A stretch of 64,000 bases of DNA from Gorillibacterium timonense (GTDB lineage: Bacteria > Bacillota > Bacilli > Paenibacillales > NBRC-103111): assembly GCF_001457415.1 (NCBI RefSeq), contig NZ_LN881721.1:248001-312000 (forward strand), read 5' to 3'. This document shows positions 5,672-48,256 of the stretch, piece after piece. The position numbers were made by a program, and so were the translations under genes. How positions within the stretch are numbered: the first letter of the stretch is position 1; each line of letters opens with the position of its first letter. The notes under the pieces are model-generated. The model had not been told where the DNA came from. It was given only the letters and a program-made list of their open reading frames with translations, and made no database searches.

Positions 5672-5705
5672 GCTGCTCTGCTGTTCGATTGCTCTTATGA
5701 GCGTC

Positions 5706-6257
5706 TTACACCATCTTCAGATCATGCGGCTCCTCCGTGTAGACGGAGATCAGGATGAGCGCCGTTTCCTCTCCGATGTTCTCGACCTTGTGAGGGGTGC
5801 AGGCGTGCCAGCTGAAGGAGTCGCCAGCCTCCAGCTCCGTGCGGTCTTCGCCCTGCTCGGCTAAGACGCGGCCTTCGAGGACGAGATGCACCTCCTCGCC
5901 TTCGTGCGCATGAGGGATGTCCCCCGTCGACTGCCCGGGCGGGATCTCCACGAGCACCATGCGCATGTGGCGAGTCGTGCCGATCTGGGAGACACTAAGC
6001 TGATCGGGGCCGCTCGTCGTTTGCCGCCGTTCCCCCTTGCGGACGACGCTCATTCGCTCGTCCTTGCGAAGCAGGAGATAAGCGAGCGGAACCTCCAGCG
6101 CTTGCGCGATATTTTCCAGGGTGCTGATGGAGGGAGACGTCTTGTTGGTTTCGACCTGGCTCATGAATCCTTGAGACAGCCCGGTTCGCTCGCAGATTTG
6201 GGCGATGGTGATGTTTTTGCGTTTACGGATAGCGCGGATTGCAGAACCTATATCCAT
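5706..6257 (-). CDS. XRE-family regulator with C-terminal cupin domain
   Basis: 183 residues. The helix-turn-helix spans residues 2-58 (AIRKRKNITIAQICERTGLS, SQVETNKTSPSISTLENIAQ). The cupin_2 domain spans about 105-178 (HAHEGEEVHLVLEGRV, ELEAGDSFSWHACTPHKVEN) and keeps the metal-ligand type His/Glu pattern. This architecture is typical of PuuR-like regulators. The ATG at 6257 is preferred because AAGGTG stands 6 bases before it; a GTG three codons upstream would overlap that site. Divergent from the doxX operon at 6431, which it may control (inference). Effector unknown. Confidence 0.88.
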   Translation of the reverse strand: MDIGSAIRAIRKRKNITIAQICERTGLSQGFMSQVETNKTSPSISTLENIAQALEVPLAYLLLRKDERMSVVRKGERRQTTSGPDQLSVSQIGTTRHMRMVLVEIPPGQSTGDIPHAHEGEEVHLVLEGRVLAEQGEDRTELEAGDSFSWHACTPHKVENIGEETALILISVYTEEPHDLKMV

Positions 6258-6349
6258 GAGCTTCACCTTCTTATGAGAAATGGAATGAGATCAACTGATA
6301 AGAGAATATAAGTGATAATAAATACAATTCTATATTAGCAATATTTTTG

Positions 6350-6378
6350 TTGACATTCTAGTGGGAAAGGGTTAATTT
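6350..6378 (+). promoter_or_regulatory. Promoter of the doxX-esterase genes
   Basis: TTGACA (6350-6355), 17-bp spacer, TAATTT (6373-6378). The surrounding 100 bp is very AT-rich and holds short inverted elements (AGCAATAT near 6337, ATATTGCT near 6393) that could be regulator sites. Confidence 0.65.
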
Positions 6379-6430
6379 ATTGTTACAAATAAAAAATCTA
6401 TATTGCTTATAAATGAGAGGAGCTTTCTTC

Positions 6431-6829
6431 ATGAAGATGAACATTGTCACCACTATAATGAGAATTGTTCTCGGCATTCTCTTCTTGGCACATGGAATCA
6501 ACAAATTCCAAACCGGCCTCGGCAACGTCGGACAATGGTTTGAGAGCATTCACGTTCCTTCGTTTATGGCTTACATCGTGGCAACGATTGAGCTGGTTGG
6601 CGGGATTCTGCTCATCGCCGGGTTGTTCACCCGCATCGTTTCGGTCGTGCTGATCGCCGTGCTTGCCGGTGCGATCTTTACCGCGAAGCTGTCGGCGGGA
6701 CTCCTCGGCAATGGACAGGGCGCAGGCTATGAACTGGATCTGGCCTTTGTCCTGGTTGCCTTCTACCTCGCGTTTGCGGACCGCTCACCGTTGTCTCTCG
6801 ATCATGCGATCTTCGGAAGGAGAGGGTGA
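6431..6829 (+). CDS. DoxX family membrane protein
   Basis: 132 residues with four hydrophobic segments. The family pattern RIVLGILFLAHGINKF...GLGNVGQWFESIHVP, then VATIELVGGILLIAGLFTR, is clear. The start is the ATG at 6431 with GAGAGGAG 8 bases upstream, rather than an earlier in-frame ATG. In B. subtilis the DoxX proteins MhqP and CatD belong to the catechol/quinone stress regulons with esterases and ring-cleavage enzymes, which is what surrounds this gene. It overlaps the esterase leader, so the two are co-translated. Molecular role of DoxX proteins remains poorly defined. Confidence 0.9.
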   Translation: MKMNIVTTIMRIVLGILFLAHGINKFQTGLGNVGQWFESIHVPSFMAYIVATIELVGGILLIAGLFTRIVSVVLIAVLAGAIFTAKLSAGLLGNGQGAGYELDLAFVLVAFYLAFADRSPLSLDHAIFGRRG

Positions 6830-7517: not shown

Positions 7518-7612
7518 GTACGCTGTCAGCTAATAAACCGTGGTTTCCGCACATCGTCCCATACCCATTGACGCAATTCACATCTACACGAGTAGAACTA
7601 ACTGCGCATTAA
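7518..7612. repeat. MITE-like repeat, copy 1 (degenerate)
   Basis: Starts GTACGCTGTCAGC and carries the inner blocks AAACCGTGGTTTCCGCAC and CCATACCCATTGACGC, shared with the copies near 38.9 and 41.4-41.9 kb (the latter in reverse). The far end has decayed, so no second terminal repeat is visible. It fills most of the 327-bp gap between the esterase and dioxygenase genes; nothing else is seen there. Confidence 0.65.
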
Positions 7613-33337: not shown

Positions 33338-33347
33338 GGTGGAGAGG

Positions 33348-34598
33348 ATGGAAATCGCAGACCTTCTCATGGTCATTGCCGTCATCAGCATCTGGTCGCT
33401 ACTGCTCGTGAATGTGGCGCTCATCATTGCTGGATACTTCTATTATATCCGCTGCGAGCGGGAGCGCCCGCCGGAGATAACCGGTGAAACCCCGTTTGTC
33501 TCGATCCTGGTGCCCGCCCACAATGAGGGCAAGGTGATCGGGCAGACGGTCGAGGCATTGCTTGCGCTCGATTATCCTCATGATCGCTATGAGATCATCG
33601 TCATCAACGACAATTCATCCGATAACAGCGCGCAGCTGCTAAGCACCATCCAGAAGAAGAATCCGGGGCGGCAGCTCATCGTCCTGAACACAGACACGGT
33701 TACCGGGGGCAAGGGGAAGTCAAACGCGCTGAACCTCGGGTTCGCCGAGTGCCGAGGCGAGCTGATCGCGATTTACGATGCCGATAACACCCCGGAGAGA
33801 CCTGCTCTCCGTTATCTCGTCGGAGAGATCACCGCTGACCCCACCTTGGGCGCCGTAATCGGCAAGTTCCGGACGCGCAACCGCGACGCAAGCTGGCTCA
33901 CTCGTTTCATCAACATTGAGACGCTGTCGTATCAATGGATGGCGCAGGCGGGAAGGTGGCAGCTGTTCCGCCTCTGCACCATACCGGGAACCAATTTCAT
34001 CATGCGGCGGTCGATTGTCGAGAGCATCGGCGGCTGGGATACGAAGGCCATTGCCGAGGATACGGAGATCAGCTTCCGCATCTATCTGATGGGCTACCGC
34101 ATCAAATTCCAGCCCCATGCCGTTACTTGGGAGCAGGAGCCGCAGACGCTCCGGGTGTGGTTCAAGCAGCGGACGCGCTGGGTGAAGGGAAACATTTACG
34201 TCATCGTCAAAAACCTGCCGCTTCTCTTCCGTTGGTCGGCTCGCCGGATCAGCTTCGACATCCTGTACTACGTCTCGATCTACTTCCTGCTTGTCACGGC
34301 ACTCCTGACGTCGGATGCCCTACTCGTTCTTCATGCGCTCGGCTATGTCCATACCTCCATCGCAGGCCTCAGCACCTTCCTGTGGCTGCTCGCCATCATT
34401 CTCTTCGTGGTAGGAACCTTCGTCACGGTCACAACCGAAAAAGGCGAAATGACCTTGTCCAATTTGTGGCTCATCGTGCTGATGTACATCTCCTACTGCC
34501 AGCTCTGGATGGTGGTGGCGGCTAACGGCCTCTACCAGTACATCAAGGACGCCATCTTCAAGCGCGAAATCAAGTGGTACAAGACCGAGCGGTATTAA
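33348..34598 (+). CDS. Processive family 2 glycosyltransferase, YdaM/BcsA-like
   Basis: 416 residues. An N-terminal membrane helix precedes the GT2 domain: SILVPAHNEGK, VINDNSSDNS, IYDADNTPE (DxD), PGTNFIMRRSIVESIGGWD, AEDTEIS and the processivity motif QRTRWVKG. Four C-terminal membrane helices follow. All catalytic motifs of polymer-forming synthases are intact. Unlike BcsA there is no C-terminal PilZ domain, so c-di-GMP control must come from another protein, probably the degenerate GGDEF protein two genes downstream. ATG at 33348 is preferred; AGGTGGAGAGG stands before it. Confidence 0.9.
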   Translation: MEIADLLMVIAVISIWSLLLVNVALIIAGYFYYIRCERERPPEITGETPFVSILVPAHNEGKVIGQTVEALLALDYPHDRYEIIVINDNSSDNSAQLLSTIQKKNPGRQLIVLNTDTVTGGKGKSNALNLGFAECRGELIAIYDADNTPERPALRYLVGEITADPTLGAVIGKFRTRNRDASWLTRFINIETLSYQWMAQAGRWQLFRLCTIPGTNFIMRRSIVESIGGWDTKAIAEDTEISFRIYLMGYRIKFQPHAVTWEQEPQTLRVWFKQRTRWVKGNIYVIVKNLPLLFRWSARRISFDILYYVSIYFLLVTALLTSDALLVLHALGYVHTSIAGLSTFLWLLAIILFVVGTFVTVTTEKGEMTLSNLWLIVLMYISYCQLWMVVAANGLYQYIKDAIFKREIKWYKTERY

Positions 34599-34624
34599 GC
34601 CGCTCCTAGATAAGGGGGAGCACC

Positions 34625-36874
34625 ATGATCAGAAAGTTGCTCGTTGTCATTCTCTCCGCAGCAATTGTGTATCCGACGCTTCCGGTTTCTGCGGAACCGG
34701 CGGCTCAAGCAAGTCCGTCGGCCCTAGCGAGCCCGTCGGGTTCGGCTGGCTCCACGCTCCAAATGGCGCCTGCCGCTTCGGCAGTTCCAAGTCCCGCTCC
34801 GACGGGTACCCCGGTCCAAGCGGATAATCCCGGCGAGAACGGCGTTACCGGCTCTTCGCCTGTTGGGAAACCCGATCCGAACCATCCGGTTCTCGTCCGG
34901 GATAGCCAGTTCCTGACGGCGGACGTCTCCATGAAGGGACCCGATAGCATCCGCCAGGATTACTTCTATCTGCCCGCCTATTGGCAGCCGGACACGGTCA
35001 CCCTCTCGCTGGATTACCGCATTACCCAGTTGGCCTTGCCCGAACAGACCAGCCTCACCCTGTCGATTAACGGCCACCCGTTCTATTCCCTGCGGCCGAA
35101 GGAGGCCGCCACCGGCAAGCAGCGCCTCACGGTGACGATTCCTCGCGAGCTTCTCGTCACCGGAGACAATCTGTTGAGAATGGAGGGCGTCCTGCGGACA
35201 GAGGTAAACGAAGAGATCTGTCTTGACGAGGAGGCTTCTCCGGCGGAATGGATCCATCTGTATCCGACCTCAACGCTGCGCATCGCTTATCGCGAGACGG
35301 CCCCGGAGGGATCGATCCGCGATTTTTATACCCGCCTCACGGGCTTCGACAAGCTGGAGGCGGGAAAGAGCCTCGTCCTCGTCTCCTCCAAGGAGAGCGC
35401 GGAAGAGTGGGAAGCCGCGGTTCACGCCCTCTCCGGGTTCTCCCGGTCGGACACTCGCGCGGACAAAGCCATCCCGCTTAGCCCTTACGCGACTGACAAG
35501 GAGAAGACGGCGGAGAATACCGTCCTCATCGCCCTCTACGATCAGCTTCCGGCCGAATGGCAGGTGCGGATCGACGGGAGCGGACTGGAGCAGGCGGCCC
35601 GCATTCAGCTGATTCGCGAAGGGCAGCGGTCGGTGCTCGTCGCCACTTCCCGCAGCCCGGAGCTGCTGGTGAAGGCGGGACGCTTCCTCGGCAATCCACA
35701 GCTGATGCAGGAGACGCTTTCGTCCTCGGTGCAGGTTGACGCGAATACCAAGGTGGAGACCCCCGCGGTCGAAATCAGCAAGACCGTGACGTTGACCGCT
35801 GCTGGCGATCAAGTGAAGGGAAGCCGACACCAGGAGCTGTCCTATTACGTTCCGCTTCCCGCAGGGCGGACGCTTGCCAATTCGGGGAAGATTCTGCTCG
35901 ATTTCCGCTATGCGAAGAATCTTGACTTCGACCGATCGATGGTGACGGTGCTGTTGAATGGAACACCTATCGGCAGTAAGAAGCTGACAGCCGAATTGGC
36001 GGATGGGGATACCGCAACCTTGTCTGTCCCGAAGAATCTGAACGTGTCCGGCAATCTCACCGTAACGGTAGCCTTCGATCTGGAGCTTAAGGGCTCCTCC
36101 TGCATCAAGGGCGAGCAGCAGATGCCGTGGGCTTATCTCACGAAGGATTCGAAGCTGCTGCTGCATACCAAGGACAACACGGAGCTTCTGTTCAACAATT
36201 ATCCGAACCCCTTCTTGCGGGACGGAGTGTATAACCAGGTGGGGCTCGTGCTTCCTTCCGAGCGAAGCGAAACGCTCTACCAGGCCGTATCCGACCTGAT
36301 CCACCTGTTTGGCCGTTATACCGAAGGAAATACGGGGGATGTGAAGGTGTTTGGTCCGGGTGCGACGGCGGAAGAGCTGAAGGATCGCAATCTCATTGCC
36401 GTAGGTACCTACGGGGATAATCCCGTGATCCGCAGCAGCAATGACAAGCTGTACTTCCGGTTTAGCGAAGATGGGACGAGAATCGACTCCAACGAGAAGC
36501 TGAGCATTGAAGAGAGCTACGGGCAAACCGTCGGCACGCTGCAGCTGCTGGCTTCTCCCTATGGGGCGGGCAAGGGAATGCTCGCCGTGACCGGACCGAA
36601 GCCGGAAGGCTACAGGCTCGCAGCGGAGCTCTTGGGGAGTGACCAATCGCGCTGGCGCATCTACGGCGATGGGGTTTTGACAGATAAGGACGGTACGGTT
36701 CAAGCCTTCCGCTTCAAGCAGCAAGCAAACGAAGAAGAGTCTACCTTGGTGGAAGATATTCTCCACCGGCCCGATGCCCTTGCGTTTACCTTAACGGTCG
36801 TCACGGTGTTGGTTCTCGCGATCATCGCGCTTCTGCTGCTCATCCGCAAGCACGGGAAGAAGAGGAGGAGATAG
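34625..36874 (+). CDS. BcsB/YdaN-like polysaccharide synthase accessory protein
   Basis: 749 residues. A signal peptide (KLLVVILSAAIVYPTLPVSA), a Pro/Ala/Ser-rich spacer (residues 25-80), then alternating jelly-roll and Rossmann-like parts: FYLPAYWQPDTVTLSLDYRI, LTLSINGHPFYSL, VTVLLNGTPIGSKKL and SCIKGEQQMPWAYL are BcsB signatures. One C-terminal membrane helix (LTVVTVLVLAIIALLLLI) with a basic tail anchors it. BcsB-type proteins guide the polymer out next to the GT2 synthase encoded upstream. Corresponds to YdaN. ATG at 34625 with AAGGGGGAG. Confidence 0.88.
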   Translation: MIRKLLVVILSAAIVYPTLPVSAEPAAQASPSALASPSGSAGSTLQMAPAASAVPSPAPTGTPVQADNPGENGVTGSSPVGKPDPNHPVLVRDSQFLTADVSMKGPDSIRQDYFYLPAYWQPDTVTLSLDYRITQLALPEQTSLTLSINGHPFYSLRPKEAATGKQRLTVTIPRELLVTGDNLLRMEGVLRTEVNEEICLDEEASPAEWIHLYPTSTLRIAYRETAPEGSIRDFYTRLTGFDKLEAGKSLVLVSSKESAEEWEAAVHALSGFSRSDTRADKAIPLSPYATDKEKTAENTVLIALYDQLPAEWQVRIDGSGLEQAARIQLIREGQRSVLVATSRSPELLVKAGRFLGNPQLMQETLSSSVQVDANTKVETPAVEISKTVTLTAAGDQVKGSRHQELSYYVPLPAGRTLANSGKILLDFRYAKNLDFDRSMVTVLLNGTPIGSKKLTAELADGDTATLSVPKNLNVSGNLTVTVAFDLELKGSSCIKGEQQMPWAYLTKDSKLLLHTKDNTELLFNNYPNPFLRDGVYNQVGLVLPSERSETLYQAVSDLIHLFGRYTEGNTGDVKVFGPGATAEELKDRNLIAVGTYGDNPVIRSSNDKLYFRFSEDGTRIDSNEKLSIEESYGQTVGTLQLLASPYGAGKGMLAVTGPKPEGYRLAAELLGSDQSRWRIYGDGVLTDKDGTVQAFRFKQQANEEESTLVEDILHRPDALAFTLTVVTVLVLAIIALLLLIRKHGKKRRR

Positions 36875-36875
36875 C

Positions 36876-37730
36876 ATGAGAAGAAACCGCAGCAGTCTGT
36901 GGTCCGATGTAGCTTTTCTGGCCTTTCTGGTTCTGTGTTACGTGACCATTCTCTACCTCGCGGGGGATCCGGACCGCTATTTGCAAAACCTGTTTTTGCT
37001 CAACATCGTCTTCCTGCTTGCGATCATCACCTATTTCACAACGGTGACGGCGGGACTTGTGCTCAATGTGGCGTTTATTTTTGCCTATGGCGCTTTTATC
37101 CTGTACCGTACGGTCACCGGCGGAGAAGCGATTCAGACGAGCGCTTATTTCTGGATCGTTCTTGCTCCTCTTCTCACCCTCGCGGTGTGGGTGTTTACCT
37201 GGTCGAGCCGGCAGCTCCAAACGGAGAATGACCAGCTTAAGCAGCAAAAGGAACGGCTGGCCACCTTGGATGAAAGCACGGATCTGAAGACGAGCCTCGC
37301 CTTCCAGAAGGATCTGTCGGTCTTCGCGGGCATCTCCGAGCGGTACGATATTCCGCTTACCCTCGTCGTGATCAAAGTCAAGTTCTGGAACGAGATGCGG
37401 CGCTTCATCCGCGCCGAGGAGCTTGCCGACGCCGTGCTCGATATCACCAAGATCAGCCAGGCCAGTATCCGCACGAACGATACCCTTTACCTGCTCGACA
37501 AGGAAAACGTGACGTGGGGCCTCCTGCTTTTTACCGATCGAGAAGGGTCCAAAGTGGTCATGGATCGCATCCGATCGGGGCTCTCGCAATTCAATACCCA
37601 GGATTTCGCTGATAAGTACAAGGTGCAATTAAACCTGAAGATCGGAGCGGTCGAGTACCATAAGGACTCGGTAGAGTCGGCGCTCGATTTCGTCTCGCAA
37701 GCTCAGCGGCAGTTGGAGTATGATGTGTAA
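36876..37730 (+). CDS. YdaK-like degenerate GGDEF protein, putative c-di-GMP receptor
   Basis: 284 residues. About four membrane helices (residues 8-115), a coiled-coil linker (LQTENDQLKQQKERLATLDE), then a GGDEF-fold domain. The active-site loop reads DKENV (208-212) in place of GGDEF, so it cannot be a cyclase. The inhibitory-site motif RxxD is kept as RTND (199-202), exactly five residues before that loop. B. subtilis YdaK is likewise degenerate and binds c-di-GMP at its I-site to activate the Yda synthase (established). The same role here is strongly suggested by order and sequence. Confidence 0.88.
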   Translation: MRRNRSSLWSDVAFLAFLVLCYVTILYLAGDPDRYLQNLFLLNIVFLLAIITYFTTVTAGLVLNVAFIFAYGAFILYRTVTGGEAIQTSAYFWIVLAPLLTLAVWVFTWSSRQLQTENDQLKQQKERLATLDESTDLKTSLAFQKDLSVFAGISERYDIPLTLVVIKVKFWNEMRRFIRAEELADAVLDITKISQASIRTNDTLYLLDKENVTWGLLLFTDREGSKVVMDRIRSGLSQFNTQDFADKYKVQLNLKIGAVEYHKDSVESALDFVSQAQRQLEYDV

Positions 37731-37771
37731 AAGGGCGATGATGGTCGCCCGAAGGAGGGAGGCTGATCGAT

Positions 37772-38002
37772 ATGCCCATTATTCAAGTCAAGCTCACCAA
37801 AGGACGGAGCGTAGAGCAAAAACAGCGGTTTGCCCAAGCCGTGACCCGGGCGGCCGCAGAGCATCTGGGCGTTCGGGAAGAGTGGGTGTCCTTGATTTTT
37901 GATGAGTACGAGCGGGACAATTGGGCCACTGGAGGGACGCTGCATTCGATCAAGTTTGAACCCGGACATGGTAAACAAGGAGCGGGGGAATCCGCTCAGT
38001 AG
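37772..38002 (+). CDS. 4-oxalocrotonate tautomerase family protein
   Basis: 76 residues. After Met removal the N-terminus is Pro (MPIIQVKLTKGRSVEQKQRF), the catalytic base of the family; EEWVSLIFDEYERDNWATGG matches the rest. Members interconvert keto-enol isomers in aromatic breakdown, or have unknown housekeeping roles. A GAAGGAGG site lies upstream. It follows the polysaccharide operon by 41 bp and may be read from it, but a functional link is not evident. Ends at a strong terminator. Confidence 0.88.
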   Translation: MPIIQVKLTKGRSVEQKQRFAQAVTRAAAEHLGVREEWVSLIFDEYERDNWATGGTLHSIKFEPGHGKQGAGESAQ

Positions 38003-38041
38003 CCGCAGAGATGACCGTTTCCATGATTTTGCAACAATAGA

Positions 38042-38090
38042 AGCCCAATGGTTCCCCGAGCTGAATCGCTCTGGAACCATTGGGCTTTTT
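38042..38090 (+). terminator. Terminator after the polysaccharide operon and tautomerase gene
   Basis: Stem AGCCCAATGGTTCC / GGAACCATTGGGCT, perfect over 14 pairs, followed by TTTTT. Confidence 0.93.
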
Positions 38091-38125
38091 GTGTTGGTGG
38101 GAATGAGGGCGTCCCTGTGCGGCTG

Positions 38126-38734
38126 CTAGTAATGGGGAAGGGCTGCGATGTATTCCATGAAGTCGTCACGGTCTAAATCCGGGAACAGGGGATCTTTATA
38201 AACGATCGCGTCGCCCGATACCTCGATAAACGCCTGCTTAGGGTTCAGAAGAGCCATAGGCTTGTCATCCGGATAGCTCTCCAAGAAAAGCAGGTATTGC
38301 TTGTCCTTTTCCAAATAGATCATGTTGTCGACGATCAATTGAGTTTTCCCATCGTCCCCTCCCAATTGCTTAACGGAGAATTCGGTTTTCTCCTTGTCTC
38401 CTTTGATGATCTGATCGGCTTTTACGCGCGACACGGTATAGACCAGATAATGAGGGGACTGTTTATTGGCGCTGATGTTCAATTCTTTTGAAGCTACCTC
38501 TTTAACGGTCACAAGTGCAATAACATCTGCAGAATTATACAGATCTCTAGGAGTTTCATAATACGGATATTCGACTAGCGCGGTTTGCGTGAGTTTCTCT
38601 TGAGCGACAAAATGGTTAGCTTTGGCTTCTTCCTTCAGGGGAGTATGAGTGGCATTCGATTGGACGGTGCATCCGCTAACGACTAGCATGCATGTCCATA
38701 AGGTTAAGACGAGGACCCGCTTGTGATTTTTCAA
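38126..38734 (-). CDS. Predicted lipoprotein of unknown function
   Basis: 202 residues from a TTG start that has GGAGG 8 bases upstream; an ATG six codons earlier overlaps that site. A basic N-region and hydrophobic core end in the lipobox VVSGC, so it is an exported lipoprotein. The mature part (DVIALVTVKEVASKELNISA, SVKQLGGDDG, YLLFLESYPDD) resembles proteins in which a beta-barrel-like domain monitors 'payments' of unknown type; no family is named with confidence. It sits alone, convergent with the tautomerase gene. Confidence 0.7.
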   Translation of the reverse strand: MKNHKRVLVLTLWTCMLVVSGCTVQSNATHTPLKEEAKANHFVAQEKLTQTALVEYPYYETPRDLYNSADVIALVTVKEVASKELNISANKQSPHYLVYTVSRVKADQIIKGDKEKTEFSVKQLGGDDGKTQLIVDNMIYLEKDKQYLLFLESYPDDKPMALLNPKQAFIEVSGDAIVYKDPLFPDLDRDDFMEYIAALPHY

Positions 38735-38928
38735 GTGCGCAACCTCCATCATATGGATAATAGAGAGGAAGATGACTCAACCGTTACGAGTTAAGCGGAA
38801 AGTGCAACGCCACACCGCATCGAAAGCGGATGTTCCGGCAGAAACCGCCAGATCCATCTGAGTGGCGAGGCTTGTCATTCTATCCTGTCTCTATACTAAA
38901 CAAACGGCAGTTGTCGGAGGTTGCACTT

Positions 38929-38991
38929 GTACGCTGATAGCCCTAATCGTGTGGATATGAATCGGCGTCAATGGGTATGAGAAGCTGTACG
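38929..38991. repeat. MITE-like repeat, copy 2 (partial)
   Basis: GTACGCTGATAGCC, then CGTGTGGATATGAATCGGCG and GGTATGAGAAG, aligned with the first half of copy 3. The second half is lost or replaced by unrelated sequence just before the aroA stop. Confidence 0.7.
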
Positions 38992-39020
38992 TTGCCCCTC
39001 GAAGTACCGTCTTGCAGAGC

Positions 39021-40109
39021 TTACCTCGTCGTCGCGGCTGCCGTTTTCATGAGGCCGGAGGCGAGAACCTGGCTGTAAAAGGTGTTGAACTGCTCGATCG
39101 TGAGTTGCTGATCGGCGTCGGATAATGCCGTCTGAGGGTCGGGATGGACCTCCACCATGATGCCGTCGGCTCCTGCCGCGAGCGCCGCCTTGGCGCAGGG
39201 GACGAGGATATCTTTGCGTCCGGTGGAGTGGCTGACGTCGACCAGAACCGGCAGATGCGTCTCCTGCTTCATAATCGGCACAGCGGAGATGTCGAGCGTA
39301 TTGCGCGTCCATTTCTCATAGGTTCGAATGCCGCGCTCGATGAGGATGATCCGGTCGTTGCCGCTGGAGTAAATGTACTCCGCCGCGAAGATGAACTCCT
39401 CCATCGTGGCCGACAGCCCGCGCTTCAACACGACGGGGACGCGGGCTTCGCCAGCAGCCTTCAGAAGCTCGAAGTTCTGCATGTTGCGGGCACCGATCTG
39501 CACGATGTCGATGTACTTGGCGGCCATCTCCATATGCGCCGGATTCACGATCTCGCTGATCGTGACGAGGCCGAACTCGTCGGCCACTTCCTTCAAAAGC
39601 CGCAGGCCCTCTTCTCCGAGTCCCTGAAAGTCATACGGCGAGGTGCGTGGCTTGAAGGCTCCGCCGCGCATGATCGGAACCCCGGCTGCCTTCAAAGCAG
39701 CAGCGACCGTGCGAACCTGCTCGTAGGATTCCACGGAGCAGGGTCCGGCGATCATCACCTGGGTCGGGCCGCCGATGGCGACGTCCTTTACCGTAACGAC
39801 CGTGTTCTCCTCTTGGCTCTTTCGGCTGACAAGCAGATGCTTCTTATGGTCTTTCTCTTGAAGGCCGACGGAGGCCTTGAAGATTTCTTTGAATACATGT
39901 TTAATGGCGGCGTCCTCGAACGGGCCTTGATTTTGCCGCACTAGCTCGTCGAGCATTTCCCGCTCCCGAACCGGATCAAACTTGGGAACACCCATTTCTT
40001 CTTTGATCTTGCCGATTTCGCGGACGATCGCCGCACGTTCGTTGAGCAGGCCGAGCAGTCGGCTGTTGACGCCGTCCAACTGGTCCCGGAGCGCTTCCAG
40101 GTTTTCCAT
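39021..40109 (-). CDS. aroA: Bifunctional chorismate mutase / DAHP synthase
   Basis: 362 residues. The first 90 form an AroQ-type chorismate mutase ([33 protein letters not shown]); the remainder is a DAHP synthase of the AroAII-beta/KDO8P type ([57 protein letters not shown]). It condenses PEP and erythrose 4-phosphate, the first step of aromatic biosynthesis, and the fused mutase gives feedback control by chorismate or prephenate. AAGGAGG precedes the ATG. Its probable T-box leader lies at 41474-41741, now separated by an IS630 element and a MITE-like repeat. Confidence 0.95.
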
Positions 40110-40224
40110 TCGTAACGCCTCCTTATCGATTGTATGGGGCCAAAAGCTTGCGCTAGTAGCTCTTCAATTCTAATAGTATGAAAATGCAATCTGTGGTAAA
40201 GTAGTGGCAAAAAGAGGTAATACG

Positions 40225-40692
40225 ATGCGACCGATAAGCTATCCGATATCACTGTCCGAAGAAGAGCGAAACCAGTTAACCGTGGTGGTATCGAAAGGAA
40301 AGGCAAGCGCTCGTGCCATCCGCCGGGCACACATTCTGCTGGCGGCCGATAAGAATCGTGAAGGCGGGGCCTTAAAAGAACGGGAGATTGCCGAGCGGTT
40401 AGGCGTGCATCCCAATACGGTCTATGCCATTCGTAAAGCGTATACCGAGCAAGGGTTGGATGGAGCAGTGAAGCGAAAAAAGCGGGTGACTCCCCCTGTT
40501 GCTCCCAAAATAACCGGAGAAGTGGAGGCAAGGATCATCGCCCTAAGCTGCAGTGCACCCCCGGAGGGACGAAGCCGCTGGACCCTGCACTTGCTGGCGA
40601 ATCGAGCGGTCGAACTTCAGTATGTGGAGGGGCTCTCCTACGAAACTGTCCGGCAAGTGTTAAAAAAACGAGCTCAAACCCCATCTTCATAA
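40225..40692 (+). pseudogene. IS630 transposase, N-terminal part (frameshifted)
   Basis: 155 residues. Carries the paired helix-turn-helix DNA-binding region: RAIRRAHILLAADKNREGG, EREIAERLGVHPNTVYAIRK and LSYETVRQVLKK. At a run of seven A (40662-40668) the frame diverges and ends in a short tail (RAQTPSS). The continuing catalytic half is in the +1 phase, so an A-tract length change has split the gene. The expected continuation, recalled from relatives, is LKKNELKP. Confidence 0.88.
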
Positions 40693-41365
40693 ATGCTGGT
40701 GTATTCCCCCCGAGCAGAATGCCACATTTGTCGCTGCGATGGAGGATGTGTTGGATGTCTATCGGTTGCCCTATGATGCGGATTGCCCCGTGATCTGCAT
40801 GGACGAGAAACCCTACCAACTGTTGGATGAAGCCAGACAGCCCATCCCTATGAAGCCCGCCCAACCTGAACGTCAGGATAGTGAATATGTCCGAGTTGGC
40901 ACCTGCAGTATCTTTCTTTTCACGGACCCCTTGGGCAGTTGGCGTCATGTGAGCGTTCGGGAGCAACGCACGCGAATCGAGTGGGCGGAACAAATCCGGG
41001 AACTCCTGGACGTTCATTACAAAGACGCACCGAAGATTCGGCTGGTGATGGATAATCTCAATACGCATGCGATCGCTTCACTCTATCAAGCGTTTGATCC
41101 GCAGACCGCTCGTCGTTTAGCTAAGCGAATCGAGGTTCACTACACGCCCAAGCATGGCAGTTGGCTCAATATGGCAGAGATCGAGCTCAGTGTTCTGACG
41201 AGTCAATGTTTGGGACGTCGCATTCCCTCCATTGCCGACTTGACCATTGAAATGTCTGCTTGGGAACAGGCGCGCAACCTTTCCCAAAAGGGAGTCGATT
41301 GGCAGTTTACTACCGAGGACGCTCGCATCAAGCTAAAACGACTTTATCCACGGTTTAAGAATTGA
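40667..41365 (+). pseudogene. IS630 transposase, catalytic DDE part
   Basis: Continues the transposase in the next frame: NELKPHLHKCWCIPPEQNA, then the DDE triad in CMDEKPY, LVMDNLNTH and SWLNMAEIE. The spacing fits the IS630 DD34E pattern and no further defects are seen, so only the A-tract shift disables it. Production of a full protein would need slippage at that tract. Confidence 0.88.
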
Positions 41366-41375
41366 AGAGCTACTA

Positions 41376-41468
41376 GTACGCTGTCAGCCTGAAACGTGTG
41401 GATACGAAACGGCATCGATTGGTATGAGAAGTAGTGCGCTAACCATCGTTTTTGAGTTGACAGCGTAC
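41376..41468. repeat. MITE-like repeat, copy 3 (complete, 93 bp)
   Basis: Bounded by GTACGCTGTCAGCC and, inverted, GTTGACAGCGTAC. Inner blocks: CGTGTGGATACGAAACGGC and GGTATGAGAAG. Sits between the T-box terminator and the IS630 right end. Confidence 0.85.
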
Positions 41469-41473
41469 CAAAT

Positions 41474-41741
41474 AAAAAAGCCGTCTATCAAGGGACGGTT
41501 TGCACCGCGGTACCAGCCTTGTTAGACAGCTTGAATGTCAAGCTTCTCGCTTCAGCACGAATAACGGTGTGCGGCCGGACCTTCCTACCGGGCTCCTGCA
41601 GGCAGCCGTTCAGAGGTCAACTCGAGAGTGAACTTCGGCGGAACGCTCGCTTCGGCAAGCTCTCAATCGGTGGCTCGCCGTCCCTGTCAGGGCTTTCCCG
41701 CTTACTTTTCTCCGTCATCGAAATGTTCGATGTTGAACTTG
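41474..41741 (-). promoter_or_regulatory. T-box riboswitch leader (probably for aroA; specifier likely UUC, Phe)
   Basis: Read on the minus strand: Stem I start GATGACGGAGAAAAGTA (about 41719-41703), a specifier region GAAGTTCACTCTCGAG (about 41635-41620), the T-box AACAAGGCTGGTACCGCGG (41523-41505), and a terminator CCGTC...GACGG with six T (41498-41474). These are the ordered hallmarks of a T-box leader, which senses uncharged tRNA and antiterminates. The codon in the specifier loop is most simply read as UUC (Phe) followed by a purine, though GUU is possible. The next minus-strand gene is aroA, 1.36 kb away across a MITE-like repeat and an IS. Confidence 0.88.
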
Positions 41742-41747
41742 TCCATC

Positions 41748-41776
41748 ATTATAGGCTTCGGAACCGAGAGATGCAA
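41748..41776 (-). promoter_or_regulatory. Promoter of the T-box leader
   Basis: On the minus strand TTGCAT (41776-41771), 17-bp spacer, TATAAT (41753-41748). Transcription would begin near 41741, giving a leader of about 270 nt to the terminator. Confidence 0.8.
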
Positions 41777-41821
41777 GTATCCACCGCGAAGTTTCACTAC
41801 GGTGAAGAAGTAAAGGGGGCG

Positions 41822-41921
41822 GTATGCTGTCAACTTTACTTTTGCGGATAGAAGTCGGTGTGAATCGGTATGGAGAAGGGTGCGGAAACCGAAACCATGG
41901 TTTTCTGAGTCGACAGCGTAC
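41822..41921. repeat. MITE-like repeat, copy 4 (complete, 100 bp)
   Basis: Bounded by GTATGCTGTCAAC and, inverted, GTCGACAGCGTAC. Contains GTGTGAATCGGTATGGAGAAG and GAAACCATGGTTTTC. Lies 46 bp upstream of the T-box promoter -35 box. Confidence 0.85.
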
Positions 41922-42117
41922 TGGGAAGTGTTTGATGTAACGGCTTTGTTGCGGCTGCTGGATGATTCCAGCTCATGGATTTTTCTTGGGAGACGATAAG
42001 TTGAGGTTAGGCGCTAAAACGAATAATAAGGCCCCACATGATGACGGTTGACCATACCTCTTTTCTCTCTAAAGCATAGAATACCTTGGTTTAGCTGAGT
42101 TAGGGGAGGAAGAAGGC

Positions 42118-42468
42118 ATGCCAAGAAAACTCAAGCGGGTTCGCAAGACAAGCACAAGGCAAACCCATGTGCATGAATTCACGGGGAGCACGAAATTGGC
42201 GGAGCAGGGCGCGGAGCGGCATAATCACCGTTTTGCCGGCGTTACGGGTCAAGTGATCCCGTGCGGCAAGAGCCATATCCACGAAATCGATCTGAGTCGC
42301 ACCGATTTTTTTGATCATTTTCATAAGCTCAAAAGGATCAGAACGGGTCGCGCCATTCCGGTAGGAAACGGGAAGCATGTTCATTTTGTAAAAGGAAATA
42401 CGACGCTCGTTGATGGTCACGTTCACCCATTCAACTTCGCCACCCTCATTCAAAAGCCGCTCGTATAG
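42118..42468 (+). CDS. YmaF family protein
   Basis: 116 residues, rich in His: THVHEFTGST, HNHRFAGVTGQVIP, SHIHEI, HFHKL, KHVHFVKG, DGHVHPFNF. This repeated H-x-H pattern over a 70-residue core is the YmaF family, small proteins of unknown function found in spore formers and possibly metal-binding (inference from His content). GGGGAGGAAG precedes the ATG. The gene stands alone and is followed by a hairpin. Confidence 0.82.
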   Translation: MPRKLKRVRKTSTRQTHVHEFTGSTKLAEQGAERHNHRFAGVTGQVIPCGKSHIHEIDLSRTDFFDHFHKLKRIRTGRAIPVGNGKHVHFVKGNTTLVDGHVHPFNFATLIQKPLV

Positions 42469-42535
42469 GAGTCTTGCCCTTCAATGGACAGCGATCTGAC
42501 AAACGGGAATAATCCCCGACATAAGCAAGCATGCA

Positions 42536-42569
42536 AATGACCTTGAAGGGAGCTTCCTTCAAGGTCATT
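42536..42569. terminator. Hairpin after ymaF-like gene
   Basis: AATGACCTTGAAGG / CCTTCAAGGTCATT, perfect 14-pair stem but without a T-tract, so terminator function is uncertain. Confidence 0.55.
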
Positions 42570-42659
42570 CTCGTAACGAGAGGAGGAGCGTAATCATGAT
42601 TAATGGGCTAGCCTTCTTCGTGAAATCGATCTGAATTCGGATTTGATGACACGCTCCAA

Positions 42660-43691
42660 TTAAAATCCTTCGCGGACGACTTCGGCCAGCAGCTCATAGG
42701 AGTGGAGCCGTGCCGCATGCTCGTAGATCTGTCCGGCAGCGATCCACTCATCGGCCTGGGTCAGCTCCTGAAGCTCACGCAGCTTGGCGCGGATCGTGGA
42801 CGGGCTGCCGATGGCGGAAAAACGCTGCTGCCCCTCCACGATCGTCCGCTCGTGCTCGCTCGGCCAGATGCTGTCCATCGAATCGACCGGAGGCTCCAAG
42901 GGGCCGCCTCCACCGCGGATGAGCCGGAGGAATTGGAGCTGCTGCGAGGTGGCGAGCCTGCGCGCTTCTTCGTCCGTATCGGCGGCGAAGACGTTGATCG
43001 CGACCATCGCATGCGGCTTCTCCAGCACGAGCGAGGGCTGAAAGCTCGTGCGGTACAGCTCAAGCGCCGGAAGCACATACTCCGGCGAGAAGTGGCTGGC
43101 GAAGGCGAATGGCAAGCCGAGCCTTCCGGCCAGCTCGGCGCTGAAGCCGCTCGAGCCGAGCAGCCAAATCGGGATGGCGAGGCCGCGGCCGGGAACGGCT
43201 TGGACGCCGATGCTCGTCCCGTCGAGGTAAGAGCGCAGCTCGCCGAGGAGCGCCGGAAAGTCCTGGCCCGAGCTGGTCAGCCCGCGCCGGATCGCCCGCG
43301 CGGCAGGCTGGTCGGAGCCGGGCGCTCGCCCAAGGCCGAGGTCGATGCGGCCCGGGAACAGCGACTCCAGCGTGCCGAACTGCTCCGCGACCATGAGCGG
43401 CGCGTGGTTCGGCAGCATGATGCCGCCGGAGCCGACGCGGATCGTGCTCGTCCCGGCTGCAATATGGCCGATGACGACGGCAGTCGCGGAGCTGGCCACG
43501 CCCGCCATGTTGTGATGCTCAGCGAGCCAGAAGCGCTGGTAGCCCCATTTTTCGGCGTGCTGGGCCAGATCGAGCGAACGGCGGAGTGCATCGGAAGCGT
43601 TGCTCCCGGCGACGATGGGAGCGAGGTCAAGCACGGAGAAGGGGGCATGGTAGCGGCCATCGGCCGATTTTGTGACGGAAGGGTATATGGT
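42660..43691 (-). CDS. LLM class flavin-dependent oxidoreductase (luciferase-like)
   Basis: 343 residues. [51 protein letters not shown] and [10 protein letters not shown]-type text ([20 protein letters not shown]) are those of the single-component luciferase-like monooxygenases related to E. coli YhbW. Uses FMNH2 or F420 in theory; FMN is likelier in Firmicutes. ATG at 43691 lies 9-10 bases after AAGGAGG; an in-frame start 14 codons upstream is not supported. Substrate unknown; no partner gene adjacent. Confidence 0.9.
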
Positions 43692-44003
43692 CATGGAAAG
43701 AAAGCCTCCTTGTATATTGAGCTCATCCAGCAAGAGTAGGTTTGCAAACTGGCTCTTCGCCTCATACGGCCAAGTTGTTTCGCCTGTTTGGAGTCATGTT
43801 GGATCTTTTTAGTCGATGCTCACTGCTGTTCAACCGTATGTTGGGTTTGAAAGCTCACTCTTCTGATTGAGAAAAGTTCTCTCTCTATGATACCCGATCT
43901 CGGAACGAAATGCTTCTACAGCTGCGACAGCTTCGATCGGTTTGGACGCCACTTGTGTTCATGATACACTTACCTCAAATCGATAGACCGAGGAGGGAAT
44001 GTC

Positions 44004-45170
44004 ATGATTCGGGTATATCCGGCAGAATCCCGGTATGTGGCTGACAGGGGCTGGCTCATGAGCAGCGCCAGCTTTTCCTTTGGCGAGTATTTCGATCCGG
44101 CTAACACCGCGTTCAGTGTGATGCGGGTGATGAATGACGACATCGTTCAAGGCGGCAAAGGCTTCGGTCCCCATCCCCACAGCGACATGGAGATCGTGTC
44201 GGTGGTGCTGGAGGGGGCGATCAAGCATCAGGACAGCCTGGGGAATACGGTGGTGACAAAAGCAGGTGGCATCCAGCGGATGACGGCGGGCAGCGGAGTG
44301 GTCCATGCCGAGTACAACGCCTCGGATACGGAACCGATGCGAATCCTGCAGCTGTGGTTCATGACTGATGAGCGGGGGCACGAGCCCTCCTTTGAGACCT
44401 GTGCCTATCCCGAGGAAAAGCTTAGCCATGGCTTGCTGCCAGTAGTCACGCCAGTCGGGGGAGTCGGCCAGGTGAGTATCCATCAGGATCTGACGCTTTA
44501 TTTAAGCCGTCTCCGGCCGGAGAGCGAGCTGATTCATCATCATCAGCCCGATCGAAGCGCTTATCTCTTCATCATCGAAGGCGAACTCGCTGTGAATGGT
44601 AAAGAACTGAAGGAAGGCGATGCCGCTCGCATTACGGAAATACCCGAGCTGTCCATTGTGAGCCGGACCGACAGCTTCTTCATGCTGATTGATCTTCCCA
44701 GAGGTTTTGAGATGCAGGATCACATATCGAGCCGAGCAAGTTCAACAGGGACAACGAACCCAACGGATGCACCGAGCCGAGCAAGTTCAGCAGGATCAAC
44801 GAACCCAACAAGTTCAATTAGCCCGGTAGGCCAATCTAGTACAGCCGCGAGCGAAAAACTCCTGATCAAGCACGCCGTCGGAGGGCGAACTTTTTTGGAT
44901 AGCTCAAAGAATCCCTCCATCCGTTATAAGGTGGAGCCGGAGGGAGAGGGCTGGTTATTTCTAGTAGAGGGAGCGCCTTCCGAAGCTATAGAGCAAATTG
45001 TGGAGTGGCGTGAGGAGCTGAACGTCTTCATCTTCCGCGATGATCTCGACCGGCCAACCGAAAAGTGCTGGTATTACGTCCAAAACGGCCCGGTACACGA
45101 TGACCAGCCGAGCGGGCAGTTGACAATTCATGCTAAATCGCGGATCGAATACATTCCAGACGAATTTTAA
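44004..45170 (+). CDS. Pirin family protein with repeat linker and extra C-terminal domain
   Basis: 388 residues, against about 230-290 for usual pirins. Residues 1-235 are a YhhW-type bicupin: HPHSDMEIVSVVLEGAIKHQD, GGIQRMTAGSGVVHAEYN, LQLWFMTDE, with His/Glu metal ligands; such enzymes are quercetinases. A linker at 247-275 repeats SRASSTGTTNPT and SRASSAGSTNPT. The final 100 residues (KHAVGGRTFLDSSKNPSIRY, YVQNGPVHDDQPSGQL) are a further domain that I do not recognise. GAGGAGGG precedes the ATG. Confidence 0.85.
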   Translation: MIRVYPAESRYVADRGWLMSSASFSFGEYFDPANTAFSVMRVMNDDIVQGGKGFGPHPHSDMEIVSVVLEGAIKHQDSLGNTVVTKAGGIQRMTAGSGVVHAEYNASDTEPMRILQLWFMTDERGHEPSFETCAYPEEKLSHGLLPVVTPVGGVGQVSIHQDLTLYLSRLRPESELIHHHQPDRSAYLFIIEGELAVNGKELKEGDAARITEIPELSIVSRTDSFFMLIDLPRGFEMQDHISSRASSTGTTNPTDAPSRASSAGSTNPTSSISPVGQSSTAASEKLLIKHAVGGRTFLDSSKNPSIRYKVEPEGEGWLFLVEGAPSEAIEQIVEWREELNVFIFRDDLDRPTEKCWYYVQNGPVHDDQPSGQLTIHAKSRIEYIPDEF

Positions 45171-45545
45171 CCAATGGTTAATAACCATGATGAATTTCAG
45201 TCGCGTAAACATATAGAAGCGAACCTAGCGGATAGAGGAAGATGAGACTCGGCCAGCGGGTAACAGGTATGAATTAGAGGGATGTCCATCTATGACGGAC
45301 AATTAGTGTTGTTTTGTCTTTCATAAGGTGGACAGTGATTTCTGAACGAGATAGAGCTGCCCGACGGGTATAGGCGTCTATATATAGTTATAAACTCTTG
45401 TACATTCCTATATGTAGATGTTTTCATGGGACTGACGAGAATAAGGCTTAATCAGTTCCGTGTCCACCTTCTAAAAAACAAAAAGGACAAAAATGTCCTT
45501 CTGTCGCGCACAAATTGGGTGCGTATGAAAAGAAAAAGCAGTATA

Positions 45546-45597
45546 GCAAACAGCCCTTTCACTCTCCGAATAAGAGAGCAGAAGGGCTGTTTGCGTT
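45546..45597. terminator. Large hairpin
   Basis: GCAAACAGCCCTT / AAGGGCTGTTTGC with inner CTCTCC/AAGAGAG pairing, then GTTT. Terminator-like for the plus strand but far (375 bp) from the pirin stop. Confidence 0.55.
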
Positions 45598-45692
45598 TAC
45601 CCATTTACATAACGCGAGAGATCGCTTCTTGCATGTAAGTGCCAGAGGTACAGCGAAGACGCGCGTCCGTTTCAAGAAAGGATTGTGCAAGA

Positions 45693-45845
45693 ATTCGCTG
45701 CCAGCAAACCGCTTCTGCGAATGACTAAGCGAACGCTTTCCGCCCAACAGGCCTTAAGCGAAACGTACACCTTTGATTCGCTGCCAGCAGTCCGCTTCTG
45801 CGAATGATTAAGCGAACTCCTTCCGTCTCAACGGACCGTAAGCTA
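45693..45845. repeat. Two-copy direct repeat, 83-bp period
   Basis: ATTCGCTGCCAGCAAACCGC (45693) and ATTCGCTGCCAGCAGTCCGC (45776), each continuing TTCTGCGAATGA, TAAGCGAAC and TTCCG. The second copy ends against the pepT stop. Confidence 0.85.
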
Positions 45846-45848
45846 ATC

Positions 45849-47081
45849 TTACGCCTTCGCGGCGTACAGCTTGATGATCTCGATGATCACCTTCGTCGCT
45901 TTTTCCATAACGTCTACCGAGGCGTATTCGTACTTCCCGTGGTAGTTCTCGCCGCCGGTGAACAGGTTCGGCGTGGGCAGGCCCATGTAGGAAAGCTGTG
46001 AGCCGTCGGTGCCGCCGCGGATCGGCTTGATCTCCGGCTCGATATCAAGGTTCTTCATCGCTTCCTTGGCGATGTCGACGATTTCGATAACCGGCTCGAT
46101 CTTCTCACGCATGTTGTAGTACTGGTCTTGGAGCGTCAGCGTGACCGTACCTTCTCCATAAGCCGCGTTCAGCTCGGCAATGGCCTTTTCCAGCGTACGC
46201 TTGCGGGCTTCGAAGTTCGTCCGGTCGAAGTCGCGGATATAGTAGCGGAGCTTGGTGTTCTCAACATCTCCCTGCAACGAGTTCAGATGGAAAAAGCCTT
46301 CATACCCCTCCGTATGCTCAGGGGCTTCGATCACGGGCAGCTTGGCGTTTAGCTCCATGGCGATCTTGAGCGAGTTCACCATTTTGTTCTTCGCGGTGCC
46401 GGGGTGGACACTCTTGCCCTTGATGGCGATCTTCGCGACGGCGGCGTTGAAGCTTTCGTACTCCAGCTCGCCCAAAGGACCGCCGTCCACGGTATAGGCG
46501 AATTTCGCCCCGAAAGCGGCGACGTCGAACTTGTGCGGCCCGCGGCCGATTTCTTCATCCGGGGTAAAGGCCACGCGCACCGTGCCGTGCTCGATCTCCG
46601 GATGGTCGATCAGGTAATGAAGGGCGGTCATGATTTCGGTAATGCCCGCCTTGTCGTCCGCACCGAGCAGTGTCGTTCCGTCGGTGGTCATCAGCGTGTG
46701 CCCTTTGTAGCCTGTCAATTCCGGGAATTCTCGTGGAGACAAGACCACGTTCAGCTCGGCGTTCAGCACAAGATCGCCGCCATCGTAGTTTTCCACGATC
46801 TGTGGATTCACGCCTTTGCCGGTGAAATCGGTCGCCGTGTCCACGTGAGCGAGGAAACCGATGACCGGTACGGACTTGTCCGTATTTGCAGGCAGCGTAG
46901 CCATGACATAGCCATTCGTGTCCATGGCTGCGTCGGTGAGCCCGAGTCCCTGCAGCTCTTCCACGAGAAGACGACCCAGCTCGAGCTGTCCCGGTGTGGA
47001 GGGGCAGGTTTCGCTGGCATCGTCAGATTGCGTTTCCATCTTGGCGTATCGGGTTAACCGTTCGATCAATTCTTGCTTCAT
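45849..47081 (-). CDS. pepT: Peptidase T (tripeptide aminopeptidase)
   Basis: 410 residues, the usual PepT length. Removes the N-terminal residue from tripeptides in the cytoplasm. M20B zinc-peptidase motifs: [79 protein letters not shown]. The start at 47081 gives [20 protein letters not shown], matching B. subtilis PepT from memory; two ATGs four codons upstream are in frame but fall on the ribosome binding site. Single-gene unit. Confidence 0.96.
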
Positions 47082-47611
47082 GCGTTCCATCATCTCCCTT
47101 TCTTTCCCTTATTGTAGCATGAACCGCCGAGTGGCATGCAAGCCAAGCGGATCGACTCGAGTTTCCCTCCATTTTGTCACAGGAGAGCGGACTGCGGGCT
47201 TGCTTGCCTTTGTGCACGCGGTCAATGAAAGCCATGACTTGCGTCCCTTTCCGATTACGGATTGAGGTCGACTTTTATCCTCACGAGTCCGAGTAAGGTT
47301 GCCAGCATATCCGCGTTGGTTTCGCTCCAGATCACGGTTCTGCACATTCAAGCGCCCGAGCGTGCTGAGTGGGGGTCACGCCTCGTTTGATGAGCATTTC
47401 GCTGCGAATTTTCCGGTTAGAGGCTCAGGACTGGAAAACCAAGCGAATCTTCGAGCATGGGCCAATTGACGGTCCGTTCTAGGATTCTATACAATTGCAT
47501 TGACCAGATTGGTCAATACTCGATGAATCGATGGCTCACAAACTCAACAAGAACGTTATAGATCAACGATATTCCACGTAGGGAATAACACGAGAAGGAC
47601 GGAATAACGCC
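47082..47611. other. 530-bp divergent intergenic region
   Basis: Separates pepT from the TetR-ABC operon. The left 350 bp show nothing clear; the right end holds the operon promoter and operator. Confidence 0.6.
47466..47516 (+). promoter_or_regulatory. Promoter and operator of the TetR-ABC operon
   Basis: TTGACG (47466-47471), 18-bp spacer, TACAAT (47490-47495), then the palindrome TTGACCAGATTGGTCAA (47500-47516, 7+3+7) over the start site. Placement fits autorepression by the TetR protein encoded first in the operon. Confidence 0.8.
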
Positions 47612-48256
47612 ATGTATGAAAAATTTCACAGCCTAGAGCAGGAGAAGCAGGACCGCATCCTAAACGCCGGGATGAAGGAGTTTGCCGTGAGCGGCTTCGA
47701 GCGTGCGTCCACCAATACCATGGTGAAGGAAGCGGGCATTTCCAAGGGGCTTTTGTTCCACTATTTTGCCAATAAGAAGCAGTTCTTTCTGTATCTCTTC
47801 GATTATGCGGTGGAGCTCAGCATAAAGGAGTTTTTTAAAACGGTCGATTGGAGCGAGCCGGACTTGTTTGTGCACTTGCAGAGGTCGATGAAGACCAAAC
47901 TGGAGGTGTGGCACCGTTACCCGGAGCTGTTCAAATTTATCGAGACGGCCTACCTGGAGACATCCGGTCAAGTCCGGCCGGAGATGGAGGAGAAAATTCG
48001 GGCGCTCCATGCGAAGACGATGCCGGAGATCTTCAAAGGAGTTGATTTCAGCCGATTTCGGGAAGGTCTCGATACCGAAAAAGCAACCCGCATCATCGTC
48101 TGGTCGCTCGAAAAGCTGGGGGATTACCTGCTGGAGGTCTATAAGCCGATCATCCCCGGCGAAAACCGCTATGAGGAGATGACGGTGGAGGCGGAGACGT
48201 ATCTGGGGCTGCTCAAGCACGCCTTTTATTCGGATAAAGGGGGAAGCGCGTCATGA
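47612..48256 (+). CDS. TetR-family regulator of the ABC exporter operon
   Basis: 214 residues. Begins MYEKFHSLEQEKQDRILNAG with KEFAVSGFERASTNTMVKEA and GISKGLLFHYFANKKQFFLY, a full TetR helix-turn-helix (residues 10-58). The C-terminus is a ligand-binding helical bundle. The stop overlaps the ABC ATPase start (ATGA), so regulator and exporter are translationally linked. A palindrome in its promoter is the likely operator. Effector is probably a substrate of the exporter (inference). Confidence 0.92.
   Translation: MYEKFHSLEQEKQDRILNAGMKEFAVSGFERASTNTMVKEAGISKGLLFHYFANKKQFFLYLFDYAVELSIKEFFKTVDWSEPDLFVHLQRSMKTKLEVWHRYPELFKFIETAYLETSGQVRPEMEEKIRALHAKTMPEIFKGVDFSRFREGLDTEKATRIIVWSLEKLGDYLLEVYKPIIPGENRYEEMTVEAETYLGLLKHAFYSDKGGSAS

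Follow-up and report, generated by a model that had tools for sequence, protein, structure and literature searches.

A phenylalanine-type T-box leader separated from aroA by nested mobile elements in Gorillibacterium timonense

T-boxes precede amino acid biosynthesis genes, and the available part of a 2008 survey (PMC2494555) includes among these chorismate mutase genes and the tyrosine operon of the Bacillus cereus group. In that survey 839 T-boxes were placed no more than 300 nt from the start of a gene and 48 at 300-480 nt, and 40 matches to the lone motif that lay away from genes were discarded. These biosynthetic T-boxes resemble the one described below, but the available text describes none that lies 1.4 kb from its gene, as this one does. 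Within the same bacterial group, the T-box of serA in Paenibacillus polymyxa WLY78 has been studied experimentally (PMC8002221). It too governs a biosynthetic pathway, that of serine, and it differs in being Ser-specific and in that the accessible portion of the report mentions no mobile DNA. For the insertions there are also partial precedents. Certain IS elements target REP repeats, short palindromes found genome-wide (PMC1525189, as excerpted), and thus share a preference for short repeats with the element reported here, where the repeat is instead a 93-bp IS630-type MITE with CTAG ends, adjoined by three copies of the IS. Finally, the 3′ terminators of IS elements and prophages have been exapted as 5′ regulators, the “mobile attenuators” (PMC2965389, as excerpted). 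There, as here, mobile DNA alters attenuation, but at the present locus an existing attenuator appears to have been moved away and none was brought in. In the literature searched, which mostly excluded subscription papers, we recognised no report of a T-box split from its gene by an IS, an absence that is unproven, and in the same literature no paper was found that deals with a T-box, aroA and DAHP synthase together.

The locus was studied in a window of 64,000 nucleotides, the whole stretch of G. timonense DNA that was analysed. The minus strand of positions 41474-41776 contains a complete T-box transcription unit, from promoter to terminator. A covariance-model search of 651 bases with RF00230 matched the entire model (positions 1-219) to window positions 41727-41488 on the minus strand, from Stem I to the antiterminator, with a score of 77.6 bits and an E-value of 4.6e-17. 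A sequence-only reading of this DNA had described a complete left-facing T-box leader with promoter, specifier and terminator, and had proposed a covariance-model search as the check; the match bears this out and disposes of the objection that there might be none. Ahead of Stem I, the sequence contains a promoter (41748-41776, minus strand) made up of TTGCAT (41776-41771), a 17-nt spacer and TATAAT (41753-41748), and a similar TTGC...TATAAT-like pair is present in many of the relatives' leaders that were inspected. An antiterminator with its TGGT bulge, CTGGTACCGCG...CGTCCC, and a competing terminator, CCGTC/GACGG-TTTTTT, are both present. The terminator (41474-41498, minus strand), evident in the sequence and in a terminator scan, consists of a CCGTC-8 nt-GACGG stem (41498-41481) followed by a T-run (41479-41474).

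The score of this leader requires comment. The curated Rfam gathering score for RF00230 is 93 bits, and because 77.6 bits falls below it, a scan of the window at the gathering threshold listed nothing. That empty scan cannot be read as the absence of a T-box, which is ruled out by the E-value scans of the window region and of the genome; the latter recovered the same leader (E 8.8e-17) as one of 23 T-boxes with E no greater than 0.001. Nor is a low score peculiar to this organism. All of the 14 relatives whose aroA leaders were scored, chosen from loci that already had a match to the core pattern, gave a T-box, with 63.3-102.4 bits; 13 of them also scored less than 93 and one reached that value. 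Ranked together with these 14, the G. timonense leader is 10th of 15.

The specifier codon is UUC (Phe), at 41630-41632 on the minus strand; the string GAAGTTCACTC is identical in this leader and in the pheS leader of the same genome. The specifiers of 11 of the genome's 23 T-box leaders could be read by pattern, with gene names assigned from translations of the downstream ORFs. The triplet located 6 nt before GAG is the expected codon of the gene in 10 of these 11 (ileS, valS, argS, leuS, two metG, trpS, pheS, cysE and aroA), the exception without a clear fit being an ilvA-like leader. The other 12, including that of tyrS, gave no reading. When aroA leaders were compared, using a pattern that admitted Phe, Tyr and Trp codons only, TTC was found in 53 of 56, this one included, and three were left unassigned (the 56 represent 53 distinct sequences). 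A Phe specifier fits the pathway of aroA, the gene that this leader is expected to control.

Leftward of the leader, aroA is the next gene, as had been claimed from the sequence. It occupies 39021-40109 on the minus strand and encodes an intact, 362-residue bifunctional DAHP synthase/chorismate mutase, the product of the gene known in Bacillus as aroA. The product matches NF009239 (PRK12595) with 598.2 bits against a cut-off of 279 and contains the Pfam domains CM_2 and DAHP_synth_1; an AAGGAGG ribosome-binding site precedes its ATG.

The relationship between this leader and aroA was assessed in relatives. The protein was searched for in 59 genomes, of which 58 gave a match; the best places were taken as loci, 29 of them from relatives (L025-L053), with some further matches, one at 67% identity, lying outside the locus set. 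A scan of named genomes added 42 loci from Paenibacillus, Cohnella and Saccharibacillus, with a best identity of 77%. Removal of three duplicates left 68 loci, and removal of a paralogue that is 51% identical (L053) left 67 that are orthologous. A T-box core precedes the start codon of aroA in 52 of the 68 loci and was not detected by the core pattern in the other 16, which include the paralogue L053, although at one of these (L093) the covariance model found a T-box that the pattern had missed. A T-box therefore precedes aroA in 53 of the 67 orthologous loci. Nine of the remaining 14 belong to Saccharibacillus (L075, L076, L081-L087, by the core pattern), and the covariance model detected no T-box at L041, L045, L051, L052 and L077, nor at Saccharibacillus L075. 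The sequence-only reading had proposed a comparison with relatives and would have been refuted by this leader preceding another gene there; instead, the relatives' leaders stand before aroA and have the same Phe specifier. The aroA T-boxes of Paenibacillus, Cohnella and their relatives (L025-L095) share with ours the UUC specifier, Stem I, antiterminator, terminator and gene. Of nine other genes of the window (33339-48256), a luciferase-like monooxygenase alone found matches at the 42 named loci (36-40% identity, 8 loci), so that conservation extends to the leader and aroA as a pair but not to their surroundings within 6 kb.

Two of the relatives' loci have features of their own. In Paenibacillus sp. 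NEAU-GSW1 (L093) the T-box (5676-5930) and the aroA match (6001-6804) are about 70 nt apart, and the match begins at residue 90, so the chorismate mutase domain may be missing there. Cohnella thermotolerans (L063) has a second, strong T-box (2921-3152, 122.3 bits) about 3 kb upstream of aroA.

It is in its distance from aroA that the G. timonense leader stands apart. The T-box core is 1396 nt from the aroA ATG, compared with 61-187 nt (median 83.5) in the 52 relatives measured. The T-box is not directly upstream of its gene, and a MITE and an IS element intervene. The sizes given by the sequence-only reading hold, at 1.36 kb from the T-run to the ATG, 93 bp for the MITE-like repeat and 1218 bp for the IS630 element. 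Subtracting the IS together with its TA reduces the spacing from the core to 176 nt, and subtracting the MITE as well reduces it to 81 nt; the IS alone is thus the part that pushes the spacing beyond the range of the relatives. For all 22 of the other T-boxes found in this genome, the start of the longest downstream ORF is offset from the end of the match by -34 to 172 nt. The gap is exceptional by comparison with the relatives, with the genome's own T-boxes and with the 2008 survey in its available part (PMC2494555). Taken as a whole, these data make it probable that the leader is an ordinary Phe-specific T-box attenuator that was displaced from aroA by nested insertions.

The larger insertion, at 40156-41373 on the plus strand, is an IS630-family element of 1218 bp, recognised by its matches to NF033545 and to DDE_3, by its copies and by its ends, which are perfect terminal inverted repeats of 16 bp. 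The element is flanked by CTA and TAG, the TA being duplicated and lying within a CTAG at either end (40153-40156 and 41373-41376). IS630 itself is said to insert at the TA of CTAG, a target attributed to Tenzen and Ohtsubo in 1991 (cited in PMC2170065); that target is shared by the present element, each insertion of which is in addition at the end of a MITE. The transposase (40204-41365, plus strand), identified from its ORFs and from NF033545, is split between two reading frames, 40204-40692 and 40739-41365, and runs opposite to aroA. The C-terminal part matches NF033545 with 125 bits (3.4e-36; cut-off 100) and the N-terminal part with 70 bits (2e-19), alone below the cut-off; the transposase also has a match to Pfam DDE_3. 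The frames are split around TTAAAAAAAC (40660-40669), and the second is open from before TTAAAAAAAC. Since the same split and run recur in relatives' elements (L134, L135; 73% and 72% identity), programmed frameshifting is favoured over a private mutation.

Three full copies of the IS were found in the genome, one in the window and the others at G000:C4:361033-362250 and G000:C5:493022-494239 (L127 and L128). A single base, private to the window copy, distinguishes it from both of the others. Because the copies are nearly identical, the insertion is judged to be recent. With four candidates scored per genome, some match to the IS was found in 13 of 104 family genomes, including this one, and matches longer than 400 bp outside this genome are 66-76% identical.

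The smaller insertion is a 93-bp MITE-like inverted repeat, GTACGCTGTCA...TTGACAGCGTAC, at 41376-41468 (no strand assigned), recognised from its copies in the genome. It has the properties of an IS630-type MITE, being short, with inverted-repeat ends, many copies and a TA/CTAG target. At least 41 places in the genome match it, a lower bound since 40 of 94 candidates were scored, and none of the 103 other family genomes gave a match with up to eight candidates scored in each. The pattern composed of a MITE end and its flanking CTAG, CTAGTACGCTGTC, occurs 119 times with at most one mismatch, against 13 times for the same pattern read backwards. Of 30 copies inspected, 25 have CTAG at one end or both, and in the window copy the TA on the T-box side reads CA. 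Nine stretches appeared to contain lone MITE ends; compared with the MITE by end pattern and BLAST, seven of them matched it in whole or in part and two did not, and these comparisons revealed no autonomous element. More partial or degenerate copies are present in the window at 38929-38984, 41822-41921 and 7518-7574, and of these, one immediately follows aroA and another immediately precedes the T-box promoter.

All three copies of the IS abut a MITE, at one end in two copies and at both ends in the third. The rarity of CTAG bears on whether this is a coincidence. In 135.7 kb (the window and 22 loci of the same genome) there are 86 CTAG sites, or 0.63 per kb, about six-fold fewer than the 3.8 per kb predicted from base composition, and a notable share of these sites are therefore MITE ends. 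By extrapolation there are about 3,300 CTAG sites in the genome, of which the roughly 119 MITE ends would comprise about 4%; the figure of 119 is approximate, as the CTAG is altered in some of these ends and the pattern overlooks any end that has more than one mismatch. If the events were independent, the probability that all three copies would be found at MITE ends by chance is of the order of 1e-4. Possibly, then, the IS630 element targets the ends of the MITE. Three copies are few, however, and a preference for a wider target (GTACTAG) would be inseparable from a preference for the repeat. A simple contributing reason may be that an element that starts with G and ends with C regenerates the site at either flank when it inserts in CTAG.

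From this nesting we infer the order of the two insertions. An IS630-type MITE would have landed first, between the T-box terminator and the ribosome-binding site of aroA, to give a stage with a spacing of 176 nt, still within the range of the relatives. Then, recently, the IS630 element would have inserted into the CTAG at the outer end of the MITE, placing aroA 1.4 kb away.

What this distance means for aroA depends on how the gene is now transcribed; the sequence-only reading, which had neither the recency of the IS and its position at a MITE end nor the second DAHP synthase to go on, offered antisense read-through of the IS, a new promoter or lost tRNA-dependent control as candidate outcomes. 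If the attenuator works as expected, uncharged tRNA-Phe would stabilise the antiterminator and RNA polymerase would leave the leader, but 1.3 kb of untranslated DNA, read antisense to the transposase, would still separate it from aroA. Rho, which is encoded in the genome (666.5 bits), and opposing transcription should remove part of these read-through transcripts. Because read-through must cross this region, control has most likely been weakened and not cleanly kept. We put at about an even chance that aroA retains such a weakened response to Phe-tRNA, while a full response seems improbable; it is somewhat less than evenly probable that the gene either relies on a different promoter or is hardly expressed, these two outcomes taken jointly. 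The most likely reading is therefore a recent, partial uncoupling of the T-box from aroA. Such an uncoupling may be bearable, since besides a second DAHP synthase (C7:885209, 50% identity), around which no T-box was matched within 10 kb, the genome encodes a chorismate mutase of the AroH type (C7:1582423).

Outward promoters are frequent in the ends of IS elements, and a promoter in the IS end or at the junction might drive aroA, which is intact and has a good ribosome-binding site. Control by tRNA would then be lost, expression would be constitutive, and the T-box RNA would be short and terminated or would be an antisense transcript. A candidate, TTTACC-16 nt-TACTAT (40200-40173), is present in the IS end that faces aroA, but it agrees at only four of six positions in each hexamer. 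Two promoter scans and a terminator scan revealed no strong promoter or intrinsic terminator in the gap between leader and aroA; a single weak terminator-like site lies inside the IS, where 2.2 would be expected by chance in the region. The strict scan of the gap returned no promoter-like site, a negative that says little because the same scan misses the leader's own promoter, which matches at three of six positions in the first hexamer. That promoter scores 9/12 in the looser scan, which found no site at 9/12 or better in the gap and four at 8/12, the candidate in the IS end among them, compared with 3.8 at 8/12 or better in shuffled sequences, so that there is no excess, although this is weak evidence. 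On balance we regard transcription from the IS as doubtful, though it is the best placed of the alternatives to partial uncoupling.

Still less probable is that aroA is effectively silenced, with the cell relying on the second DAHP synthase and the T-box-aroA unit on its way to becoming a pseudogene. The presence of that synthase, of the AroH mutase and of Rho would permit this, and one pair of the antiterminator is broken. In the lower helix, beside the tRNA-binding bulge, this pair is C-C; no other leader among the 56 compared (53 distinct sequences) has such a mismatch. Only that of Cohnella thermotolerans (L063) shares the C on the 5′ side, where it is paired with G. When the antiterminator segment was folded without constraint, the lower helix did not form (-6.8 kcal/mol), whereas it formed in the same segment of C. 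thermotolerans (-12.2 kcal/mol), and the mismatch with its unformed helix could mean that some function has already been lost. When the lower helix is imposed, however, the antiterminator is not among the six weakest of the 56; the terminator is the sixth weakest. Despite the unique C-C pair, decay of the leader is not claimed, because its score ranks among those of the relatives and the antiterminator with its imposed helix is not weak. The aroA ORF is likewise intact. Moreover, so recent an IS leaves decay uninformative, and for the same reason the mismatch may have arisen either before the IS arrived or since.

We also consider it improbable that the T-box now regulates the IS in addition to aroA; read-through made while tRNA-Phe is uncharged, being antisense to the whole transposase, could then silence this copy and place the transposition of one IS under amino acid control, with aroA supplied across the 1.4 kb. 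A misassembly at the repeated IS, three copies of which differ by one base at places where misjoins can arise, is rejected as extremely unlikely, since the flanks are a Phe T-box and aroA, a pair that adjoins in the relatives and would be 81 nt apart here without the inserts, and since the window copy has a private base.

Partial uncoupling thus remains our preferred interpretation: to judge from the sequence, the T-box looks intact and its hold on aroA is now in doubt. The arrangement results from a single recent insertion and may be short-lived. With the undisturbed form available in dozens of relatives, it offers a natural experiment on the distance over which an attenuator can still control its gene. 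It also suggests that a MITE may prepare the ground for a larger insertion, because a G...C element inserted in CTAG recreates CTAG at both of its ends, so that a MITE in front of a gene can offer an IS630 element a place to insert.
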